DNA of 36,072 nt, from the NCBI GenBank assembly GCA_017458265.1, contig JAFTFV010000004.1, forward strand, positions 1 through 36,072. Direction: 5' to 3'. The translations under genes were made by a program, and so were the position numbers. Numbering within the stretch: position 1 is the first letter of the stretch; the number at the start of each line of letters is the position of its first letter. Under the pieces are notes generated by a model, which was not told the origin of the DNA, ran no database searches, and saw nothing but the letters and a program-made list of their open reading frames with translations. Below are positions 5,014 to 35,173 of this stretch, piece by piece. This stretch comes from Bacteroidales bacterium (GTDB lineage Bacteria > Bacteroidota > Bacteroidia > Bacteroidales > UBA932).

Positions 5014-5021
5014 CAAATTTA
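5014..5021 (-). promoter_or_regulatory. -7 element of the gpmI-lpx operon promoter
   Basis: TAAATTTG on the minus strand matches the Bacteroidota -7 consensus TAnnTTTG. Transcription would begin near 5007, giving a leader of about 15 nt before the gpmI ATG. No good -33 TTTG is seen at the expected distance. The element sits at the 3' end of tilS. Confidence 0.55.
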
Positions 5022-6125
5022 ATCATTTTTTATGGAAATCCGAAGTATGCGTTCCGTGGCTGCCGTAACGCGTACCGAATGGTCTATGCAGAAGCCGGCT
5101 ACAGCAAGGACGTGGCTTGGGTCTTTCTTGCTCTTTATGAGAAGTATAGCGTGTTTATCCTCAATGTTGAAGTGATGGTCCGTGAACCAGTCCTGGAGCT
5201 TTTTCTTTCCCGGGGCGCCAAGCGGCCTTATCCAGTCTCCCTGCTCCCAGTGTCCTTCAATATACTCGCCGGCTTTGTCTGCGTCCATGATGAGCATACC
5301 CTTTGGCTGGATGACTGGACTTGAACCATCCCATTCTTCTTCTTGAACGGTGTAGGAGTTTGTGGAGGCATACCCTCCTGAAACCTTCGGACCTTCGGTC
5401 CTCGTCCCTCCCACTGCCTCCGGCAGCGGGCCCCTCCCGTTCATGAAGCCACGGGCGGCTACAGTTTCCGGAGGGTATGCCTCCACAAACTCTGAGAACC
5501 TTTTCATGTCGCCGTTAAAAGTCTGGATGAAGGAGGGATTGATTTCCTTGAAGACAGGGAAGACCAGGTTGCGGATTTTGTTCCTTTTGTACTCGTTTTC
5601 CGCATTGGTGTGGTCTTCTCTCCACTGAAGCCCGTGCTCTTTCGCAAAGGCTTCGATATCCTCCCTTGTCATATCCAGAAGGGGACGGCGGAGGGGGATA
5701 TCGGCATAGTCGGGGTCCGGGATGAAGCCTTCTTTTTTCATGCCAATGATGCCTTTGAGCCCTGTTCCCCTCAGGAGGTTGAGGATGAGGGTTTCGGCGT
5801 TGTCGTTGGCGTTGTGGGCTACTGCAACCGCTTCATAGCCGTGCTCTTTGCAGAGTTCTCCGAACCAGCGGTAGCGGAGCTGGCGGGCGGCCATTTCAGT
5901 GCTGATCTTTTCAGAAGCGGCATGCCCGAGCGTGTCAAAATGCCGTACGTGGCACTCTATGCCGTATTTTGAGGCCCATCCGCGGACGAAGGCTTCATCG
6001 GCATCGGATTCTTCGCCCCTGAGATGGAAGTTGCAGTGTGCAATTGCGAAAGGCCCGCCCTCGAGGCGGACCTTTTCTACGAGGCACATGGAGTCTATGC
6101 CTCCGCTTACTGCAACCAGTAGCAT
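5019..6125 (-). CDS. tilS: tRNA(Ile)-lysidine synthase TilS, with an inserted palindromic element
   Basis: TilS converts C34 of tRNA-Ile(CAU) to lysidine using ATP and lysine, so it is normally essential. The PP-loop SGGIDS is at residues 7-12, followed by [15 protein letters not shown] and [20 protein letters not shown]. The C-terminal TilS domain includes [10 protein letters not shown] and [12 protein letters not shown]. The N-terminus is short: the ATG is directly ahead of the first beta strand and an in-frame TAG at 6129-6131, which is also the stop of the upstream gene, blocks extension. Residues 212 to about 257 come from a 137-bp inverted-repeat element placed in the linker between the two domains. 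It follows DUF3078 with a 3-nt gap in the same frame. Confidence 0.93.
5356..5492. repeat. palindromic element inserted in frame in tilS
   Basis: A 29-bp left arm (5356-5384) and a 29-bp right arm (5464-5492) are inverted copies with a single mismatch, enclosing 79 bp. The interior holds smaller hairpins: GGACC/GGTCC around 5389-5401 and CTGCC/GGCAG around 5414-5426. Read in the tilS frame the right arm gives [10 protein letters not shown] and the left arm [10 protein letters not shown], with no stop between. This resembles protein-embedded palindromic elements such as the Rickettsia palindromic elements. No second copy of the arms was seen in this window. Confidence 0.9.
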
Positions 6126-26195: not shown

Positions 26196-26217
26196 TATAT
26201 TTGAATGTGCAAAAATA
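26196..26217. promoter_or_regulatory. two facing -7 elements between btuB and btuF
   Basis: TATATTTG on the plus strand (26196-26203) and TATTTTTG on the minus strand (26210-26217) both match TAnnTTTG and point at each other with 6 bp between. The minus element would start the btuB transcript near 26203 (22-nt leader). The plus element would start btuF almost at its first codons. No convincing -33 elements accompany them. Confidence 0.4.
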
Positions 26218-27214
26218 CAAAATATTTCTCCTCTCCGTTCTCGTTGCAGCCTGTTCTTCTCCCAAACCCGTGGAAGGAGACATGGAATATGCCCGCTGGT
26301 TCAGCATTCTTGACAGTACTTCCGTGGTGGTGTTTTCACCGTCCGGCGGGGCGGATACTCTCCGCGGTCCGGTTCAGAGTCTCGTGTGCATGTCCACTTC
26401 CTATGTGGGTTTTCTGGATGCGATAGGGGAGGCCTCTGTGGTAAAGGGCGTTTCCGGATTGAAGTTTGCAGGAACCCCCGGCCTTGATGCCATTGAGGTG
26501 GGATACGATGCAAACCTTGACTATGAGGCAGTACTCAAAACACGTCCTGACTACCTTCTGACTTATGCCGTGGGCTCTGTGGAGCCTGCATATCTGGCAA
26601 AGCTTCGTGAACTGGGCATAAAGGCTGTGGTGCTTAGCGAACATCTTGAGAACCATCCGCTTGCAAGGGCGGAGTATGTCAAGCTCTTCGGCGCTCTTAC
26701 GGGGCGGCTCCACCAGGCCGATTCCGTCTTTTCCGATGTCCGTGACAGGTATCTTTCGCTTGTGCAACCTTCCGTCACATGCAAGGTCCTCGTCAATGTG
26801 CCATATGCCGATTCATGGTACATCCCCGGCGGAGAGAACTACATGACCCGCCTGATCTCTGACGCCGGCGGAGAAGTCCTCGGAGCAGTCCCCGGCCGTG
26901 ACAATTCCTCCGTAATTTCTCTCGAAAAGGCGTATTCCTTTGCGCAGGAGGCCGATTTCTGGCTCAATACCGGCTGGTGTTCCTCCCTGAAGGACATGTC
27001 CCTTATCCACCCCGTCTTCAAGGATTTCAACTTCCCGGAGGTCTGGAACAACACCCTTCTTACAACCCCCGGCGGCGGCAACATGTTCTGGGAAACCGGC
27101 CCCGTCCGTCCCGACCTCATCCTCCATGACCTCGTCCGCATATTCTCTCCTACCTCTGTCATTTCGAGCGAAGTCGAGAAATCTCCCTTCAATTATTATT
27201 TCAAACTTAAATAA
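26201..27214 (+). CDS. btuF: BtuF-like substrate-binding lipoprotein
   Basis: A 337-residue periplasmic binding protein of the BtuF/FepB (PF01497) type. The lipoprotein signal ends LVAAC (Cys18). Two lobes follow: SLVCMSTSYVGFLDAIGEAS in the first, then LKTRPDYLLTYAVG and LRELGIKAVVLSEHLENHPLARAEYVKLFGALTGR leading across the helical bridge, and YIPGGENYMTRLISDAGGEVLG in the second lobe. No ATG fits: TTG at 26201 or GTG at 26207 must initiate. The last 18 residues (VISSEVEKS onward) are encoded by and after an interspersed repeat at 27157-27185, so the native C-terminus has been replaced or extended. Partner permease and ATPase genes are not adjacent. Confidence 0.82.
   Translation: MNVQKYKIFLLSVLVAACSSPKPVEGDMEYARWFSILDSTSVVVFSPSGGADTLRGPVQSLVCMSTSYVGFLDAIGEASVVKGVSGLKFAGTPGLDAIEVGYDANLDYEAVLKTRPDYLLTYAVGSVEPAYLAKLRELGIKAVVLSEHLENHPLARAEYVKLFGALTGRLHQADSVFSDVRDRYLSLVQPSVTCKVLVNVPYADSWYIPGGENYMTRLISDAGGEVLGAVPGRDNSSVISLEKAYSFAQEADFWLNTGWCSSLKDMSLIHPVFKDFNFPEVWNNTLLTTPGGGNMFWETGPVRPDLILHDLVRIFSPTSVISSEVEKSPFNYYFKLK
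27157..27185. repeat. REP-like interspersed repeat at the btuF 3' end
   Basis: The imperfect palindrome TGTCATTTCGAGCGAAGT plus CGAGAAATCTC is, from memory, of the kind scattered in many genomes, including Bacteroidota, where it is often wrongly read as peptide. Here it is truly inside the btuF frame (VISSEVEKS), 30 nt before its stop. Confidence 0.7.
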
Positions 27215-34055: not shown

Positions 34056-34092
34056 GTGTGCTTCGGCTTGGTTTTTCAAGGCCGCGATACAC
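34056..34092. terminator. hairpin after argS
   Basis: GTGT and CGGCTTG pair with CAAGGCCG and ACAC (one bulge) around a T-rich loop, 3 nt after the argS stop. No T tract follows on the plus strand, so an intrinsic terminator is uncertain. Confidence 0.3.
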
Positions 34093-34094
34093 GC

Positions 34095-34148
34095 AAACCA
34101 CCGTTTTCTGCCCCCTGTGAGCATAAACGGTGGTTTGACTGTATCTGG
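34095..34148. repeat. palindromic repeat copy 1, left of the TA module
   Basis: Perfect 12-bp inverted arms AAACCACCGTTT (34095-34106) and AAACGGTGGTTT (34125-34136), followed by TGTATCTGG (34140-34148). Copy 3 at 35118 shares the arms, a similar loop (TGAGC) and TGTATCTGG. It could end the TA transcript. Confidence 0.85.
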
Positions 34149-35117: not shown

Positions 35118-35173
35118 CCAAACCACCGTTTTCGGCCTCTGGTGAGCTGAAACGGTGGTTTGGATGTATCTGG
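35118..35173. repeat. palindromic repeat copy 3, right of the TA module
   Basis: Perfect 14-bp arms CCAAACCACCGTTT (35118-35131) and AAACGGTGGTTTGG (35150-35163), followed by TGTATCTGG (35165-35173). Same orientation and layout as copy 1 on the other side of the TA genes. Confidence 0.85.

Follow-up and report, generated by a model that had tools for sequence, protein, structure and literature searches.

A dispersed small mobile element within tilS and other genes of Bacteroidales, with a copy-specific stem that appears to be made of host DNA

Why a gene for tRNA-Ile lysidine synthetase should carry a long and nearly perfect palindrome inside its reading frame is the question raised by this locus, which lies in a window of 36,072 nucleotides (the whole stretch of DNA analysed, contig JAFTFV010000004.1 of the Bacteroidales assembly GCA_017458265.1). 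The tilS open reading frame (5019-6125, minus strand, 368 codons) contains a complete 137-bp element (5356-5492) at about residues 212-257. On the plus strand, the element consists of two 29-nt inverted arms (arm 1, 5356-5384; arm 2, 5464-5492) that are 97% complementary, with a single mismatch, and of 79 nt between them; the arms, their extent and their position in the frame are as an earlier reading of the letters alone (the sequence-only reading) had described them. The chance expectation of such an arm pair is roughly 2e-9 for 36 kb of uniform random sequence. Matches to PF01171 (PP-loop, residues 2-186) and TIGR02432 (lysidine_TilS_N, residues 2-190) identify the protein as TilS, of which the minus strand of arm 2 codes the residues EFVEAYPPE(T). 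The element had been placed between the PP-loop domain and the C-terminal TilS domain; the former stands, whereas the latter finds no Pfam match at E<=0.001 in the window's TilS, although a conserved C-terminal block is visible in an alignment with relatives. Likewise, the arms and the interior are indeed free of stop codons in this frame, but there is nothing special about this openness, as composition alone predicts it: over 85 core copies, a mean of 4.06 of the six frames is open, against 3.98 in dinucleotide shuffles. The idea that the core is adapted to be stop-free in all six frames was therefore rejected.

What is repeated is the core of the element, while the arms differ from copy to copy, each pair being nearly self-complementary. 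The sequence-only reading had taken the arm for the repeated unit and had held that an arm found nowhere else in the genome would speak against a mobile family. When the arm was searched against the host genome, no second occurrence was found at the sensitivity used, but this expectation was aimed at the wrong part of the element, and copies of the core were found instead. The core (5385-5463, plus strand, 79 nt here) was delimited by a profile and by an alignment of 74 of the 78 reference copies, and it comprises the conserved blocks TCCCTCCC, GGGCCCCTCCC and ACGGGCGGC together with variable hairpins. The covariance-model match at the tilS core spans 5373-5476 and scores 105.6 bits. Hairpin P2 (GGACC-TTC-GGTCC, 5389-5401), placed by fold and alignment, varies among copies; hairpin P3 (5410-5430) has a near-invariant CCC/GGG closing and inner pairs that covary; the stretch GGGCCCCTCCCGTTCA (5428-5443) is conserved in the 74-copy alignment; and hairpin P4 (TG.AGCC...GGCT.CA, 5444-5463) covaries across copies, the minimum-energy fold of the single sequence favouring an alternative pairing in this region. 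As RNA, the 137-bp element is predicted to form a long stem that closes a three-hairpin core, and its folding relative to dinucleotide shuffles gives z scores of -9.2 and -10.1 on the two strands. The length inside the arms has a median of 76 nt, the middle 90% of 194 copies falling between 66 and 92. In a 12-pair consensus, 97.9% of the cells are paired and 119 cells change on both sides, where shuffles give 30.8; covariation is scored at 0.380, against 0.128 when shuffled and at most 0.074 with slid partners. Since template switching can give rise to double changes in stems (as set out in excerpts of PMC8794818), this covariation indicates a maintained structure and not by itself selection.

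The tilS segment is one copy of a dispersed small non-coding mobile element. The window's genome (G000) holds at least four core copies by covariance model (13 of 584 candidates scored), those besides tilS being found on contigs C24 and C53 by sequence search and on C14 by covariance model. These three sit in a YggS-type gene, in truB and in ribF; the first two families are confirmed by domain match, and the ribF call follows from likeness to ribF of the sister genome G057. Within the genus, 43 of 61 genomes, the window's own included, match a 171-bp query, and order-wide five of 295 genomes, from four families, match under strict filters. A pattern scan of named genomes returned at least 120 stretches with the core. 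Among the matches listed, 119 are named Bacteroidales, Bacteroidia, Bacteroidaceae or Candidatus Cryptobacteroides (the last with three contigs), and where a source is given the listed matches come mostly from ruminant or horse guts. One core copy (L243, CADAXZ010000113.1) lies on a contig labelled Elusimicrobium, which is probably a mis-binned Bacteroidales contig. Carriage of the element by phage was considered and rejected, as no stretch in viral contigs matches the core pattern. In total, 261 core hits correspond to 213 non-redundant copies, of which 194 reach an arm score of 12 or more, 191 were used in the arm profile and 175 have enough flank for gene context. Copy numbers are lower bounds, because a limited number of candidates was scored per genome, and the data are draft assemblies without reads, many of them metagenome-assembled, in which assembly errors at hairpins are possible.

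The element enters a variety of conserved proteins. A frame of at least 150 aa spans 45 of 92 copies, a few such frames being due to chance (for example, the antisense one at L022), and the interrupted proteins belong to nine families: TilS, alanine-racemase-N (YggS-type), TruB, MurB, RibF, an RsmE-type RNA methyltransferase, TrmB, DnaX and YgiQ. Of 30 TilS loci retrieved, nine contain a core match, and in G047 and G023 the element occupies a second place within TilS. The proposal of a dispersed palindromic repeat family that is tolerated by proteins of this lineage is thus supported by in-frame copies in tilS and in other conserved genes. A divergent type of core, translated as ADPSQS(K/R)LWAPPSY.AEGGH, is seen in RibF of G000 (L157, C14) and in TilS of G180 (L038).

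How can a family defined by its core have a stem that is specific to each copy? With no preselection on arm score, the two arms of a copy score higher than the 99th percentile of 883 mismatched arm pairs in 87 of 92 copies. In the 191 copies preselected for their arm score (12 or more), the complementarity of the two arms of one copy amounts to 0.69-0.83 at arm positions 6-20 and drops off by about position 30; between copies, arm identity at positions 6-20 is 0.24-0.34, near background. The innermost arm nucleotides (AAAC/GTTT) look element-derived in the genus. Rickettsia palindromic elements, with which the tilS segment had been compared, have palindromic ends that are conserved between copies, so that the parallel holds for behaviour, that is for insertion in frame, and fails for the ends, given the near-background identity between arms here. 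The comparison within genome G007 is the most telling. Eight copies fetched of 12 matches have an inside-arm identity of 0.96 and arms of 22-35 bp, and once the inner 6 nt are left aside, these arms are 0.98 alike within a copy, 0.40 between copies and 0.31 when shuffled, with two of the eight copies sharing an arm stretch. Within-genome comparisons of this kind used a strict core pattern by which some fetched copies were dropped (in G011, one of five loci was kept). Since drift hardly scrambles arms while sparing the core, the arms in G007 seem to have been acquired with each insertion.

The same data bear on a more conventional explanation, according to which this is an ordinary non-autonomous element whose own terminal inverted repeats drift fast while template switching or selection preserves their complementarity, with no contribution from host sequence. 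This would fit G377, a genome from another Bacteroidales family, in which copies share 22-bp arms and have flanks that, apart from a shared 12-nt right edge, are mostly dissimilar, and it would also fit the arms that are loosely alike within G040 and within G011, as well as the concerted arm changes in TruB and rnfC orthologues. However, drift can hardly produce the pattern in G007, and one arm appears to be native coding sequence at rnfC, MurB and TilS (see below), so that we consider this explanation improbable for the family. Element-owned ends may nevertheless explain the copies in G377, and we retain their shared arms as evidence against a stem that is purely target-made. Two core types with shared arms are close neighbours at the G377 loci L369 and L365, where a CCACTTATGG-like palindrome adjoins the outer side of the right arm.

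Filled and unfilled sites can be compared between rnfC and rnfD and within MurB and TilS; one of the two arms there reads as native coding sequence, and its partner as an inverted copy. Five of 30 fetched rnfC-rnfD loci are filled (G032, G026, G066, G024 and G021; the locus comparison has rows for 28 of the 30), and the pattern scan added three further filled copies (L279, L271 and L214). In the filled loci, the left arm corresponds to the last codons of rnfC (IIRGR), which are present too in the unfilled G059, and the right arm is an extra, inverted copy. Arms of rnfC orthologues change partly in step and partly drift apart. In MurB, the filled gene of G057 is longer by 105 nt than that of its unfilled sister G000, with the frame kept; the gene of G000 contains a single occurrence of the 21-bp right arm and neither the left arm nor the core. 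Similarly, the right arm in MurB of G037 codes the conserved (T/S)PxL region, which the unfilled sister G005 has once. At the second TilS site (G047, G023), the residues encoded by the left arm are AAGFL, in agreement with the GF(I/L)P motif native to other TilS proteins. At the G007 site L105, neither arm is present in unfilled relatives. The unfilled MurB genes of G000, G005 and especially G003 could be deletion scars rather than virgin sites; their spacer lengths are within the normal range, and they are treated here, with caution, as clean ancestral states. At the tilS site of the window, the direction of change, from a filled or an empty ancestor, cannot be polarised, because the linker holding the element is hypervariable across the genus in the TilS alignment.

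It is conceivable that the stems were there before the core, which would then have inserted into the loop of pre-existing hairpins such as intrinsic terminators or palindromes, the arms being the old stem and native on both sides. In line with this, 46 of 98 between-gene copies lie within 20 nt of a stop codon, compared with 93 of 600 random between-gene positions, and many intergenic arms, judged by eye, carry A/T tracts like bidirectional terminators. Moreover, where MurB of G064 carries the element, the unfilled MurB of G003 shows a 15-nt palindrome, GGATAGAGTCTATCC. A LytTR junction, an intergenic site that suits this explanation well, carries the element in G007 but a plain hairpin resembling a terminator in the relative G056, and relatives there have plain hairpins or other cores. 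Yet 77 of the 175 copies with gene context lie inside gene calls (made with a home-made gene caller), where terminators are not expected. In unfilled relatives whose rnfC-rnfD gap is resolved, this gap measures 2-34 nt and contains neither a core nor such a hairpin; the exceptions are G007 and G055, whose gaps hold other inserts (in G055, L349, the gap is 168 nt long, has a 14-bp perfect inverted repeat at its bounds and lacks the element core). Unfilled MurB of G000 and of G005 holds only one arm of the two. We therefore find insertion into ready-made hairpins rather unlikely as the general route, while it may account for some intergenic copies. At the LytTR junction of G024, G039 and G026 (L402, L403 and L404) there are long hairpins with other cores, for example CCCCGCCCTCTGCGAGGGCACCCCCTAGCCGGGGGTGGCAT, which are possibly further core families of the same build.

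A further peculiarity is that the core can lie either way round at the same place. In tilS, the elements of G000 and of its sister G057 are identical over 137 of 137 positions as exact reverse complements, at the same place and with the frame open in both, amid flanks that are 80-90% identical (about 14% diverged). That the element is identical within diverged flanks points to constraint, to recent exchange or to repair. In 81 pairs of filled orthologous sites, the two elements point the same way 46 times and in opposite directions 35 times; the pairs are interdependent, however, and combine insertions that are shared with others that arose separately, including hot spots that were hit more than once. 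Arms that are recognisably shared around opposite cores are found in TilS and TruB (G000/G057), RsmE (L071/L109) and MurB (G064/G069), the opposite cores in TruB being of different type. To take every opposite pair for an inversion in place proved unsafe, as several are hot spots whose arms differ (MurB, TilS) and as the inversion at L253/L275 seems to extend past the arms.

Such flipping also bears on the notion that the element is a functional RNA (a terminator or an mRNA stability or processing element) that is kept for its structure and is not mobile. The covariation of the core, folding z scores of about -9 to -10 in the two copies folded and the closeness to stop codons would suit such a role. 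Against it, the element is found in both orientations at orthologous sites and within many coding regions that are unrelated. At gathering score, Rfam gave no match in window stretch 5200-5650 and no element match in nine loci (one neighbouring tRNA aside), and for one copy searched at E<=10 it returned weak microRNA-precursor models alone, the best with an E-value of 0.0017 and 24.4 bits against a gathering score of 52. We give this notion very little credence.

The reading that we prefer, with a probability of roughly 0.6, is that of a mobile core with a stem of host DNA, template switching during replication being the process that forms the stem, keeps its arms matched and flips the core. 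The core would be inserted as, or copied through, a folded single strand. At its short complementary ends (GAAAC/GTTTC), a DNA polymerase could switch template and make, across the core, a reversed copy of the neighbouring host DNA, and the stem would arise in this way. Later switches would keep the arms matched and turn the core round, and insertions that keep the frame in linkers of host proteins would be tolerated, hence the presence in tilS. There is published precedent: template switching between inverted repeats homogenises the arms and inverts the spacer, also within coding sequence (excerpts of PMC8604942), and it can create perfect hairpin stems in a single event (excerpts of PMC8794818). 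Template switching would thus account for host-derived arms, near-perfect complementarity, concerted change and flips, but not for the spread of the core.

For this spread, our best available guess is a Y1 (HuH) transposase acting in trans. Y1 matches occur in 46 of the 61 genus genomes; 38 genomes have both the element and Y1, five the element only, eight Y1 only and ten neither (Fisher p 0.0007, uncorrected for kinship). The possibility that a Y1 gene, the sole type of mobilising gene sought, accompanies the element was rejected, as 24 Y1 loci (112 kb) contain no core match at E<=0.01. More tentatively, and with less than even odds in our judgement, insertion itself may build the terminal inverted repeats: a folded core would be joined to a host 3' end, snap-back synthesis would copy the adjacent host DNA, and the core would flip in place later. 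As part of the same tentative proposal, this would leave an inverted rather than a direct target duplication.

Several known systems resemble the element in part. A MITE review (excerpts of PMC10969869) describes the Rickettsia palindromic elements as palindromic repeats some 150 bp in length, of which many lie in frame within protein genes that are unrelated to one another. This in-frame insertion into protein genes is a likeness of behaviour; our element belongs to another bacterial lineage, and it is the core that repeats, the arms appear host-derived where checked, and orthologous copies flip. The manner of entry into proteins may be called Rickettsia-palindromic-element-like, while a stem of host DNA would set the element apart. 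REP/BIME sequences mobilised with RAYT (TnpAREP, Y1 HuH) are likewise dispersed, small and non-autonomous hairpins, but the core here is larger and multi-hairpin and the stem is copy-specific. Bacterial MITEs are also short and non-coding and have inverted ends, and the copies in G377 do share their ends; in contrast, the window's genus lacks ends common to copies, and no direct target duplication was noticed by eye at the few filled and unfilled pairs compared. Hairpins from template switching (quasi-palindrome mutation) show the same arm homogenisation, spacer inversion and one-step stems (excerpts of PMC8604942 and PMC8794818), yet in the yeast cases shown the spacers are a few bases long and immobile, whereas here the spacer is a conserved and dispersed core. 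Finally, the coding palindromes of Nematomorpha mitochondria, as outlined in excerpts of PMC6649704, are long perfect inverted repeats within protein genes, as here.

If the stem is truly made from the target, the element would represent a mode of insertion with inverted target duplication. The literature searched holds no description of this element or of such an insertion, and we know of no bacterial element for which this mode is established. Its hundreds of copies, which record arm capture, arm repair and core flips, offer a natural test bed for template-switch mutation, and also for the tolerance of some 30-45 foreign residues by TilS, MurB, TruB and DnaX.

Other repeats are present in the window. 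A second in-frame repeat lies at 27159, at the end of a plus-strand ORF (26201-27214); it is REP-like (GTCATTTCGAGCGAAGTCGAGAAATC) and reads SVISSEVEKSP. Forms like it occur as CHSELVEES and CHSERSEES in MurB of G051 and RibF of G000, and as VISSEVEKSP in MurB of G057. Two hairpin repeats that resemble each other (CAAACCACCGTTTTC...AAACGGTGGTTTG), at 34086-34148 and 35119-35173, are separated by about 1 kb and enclose two small ORFs, one with a putative HigA/XRE-like sequence.
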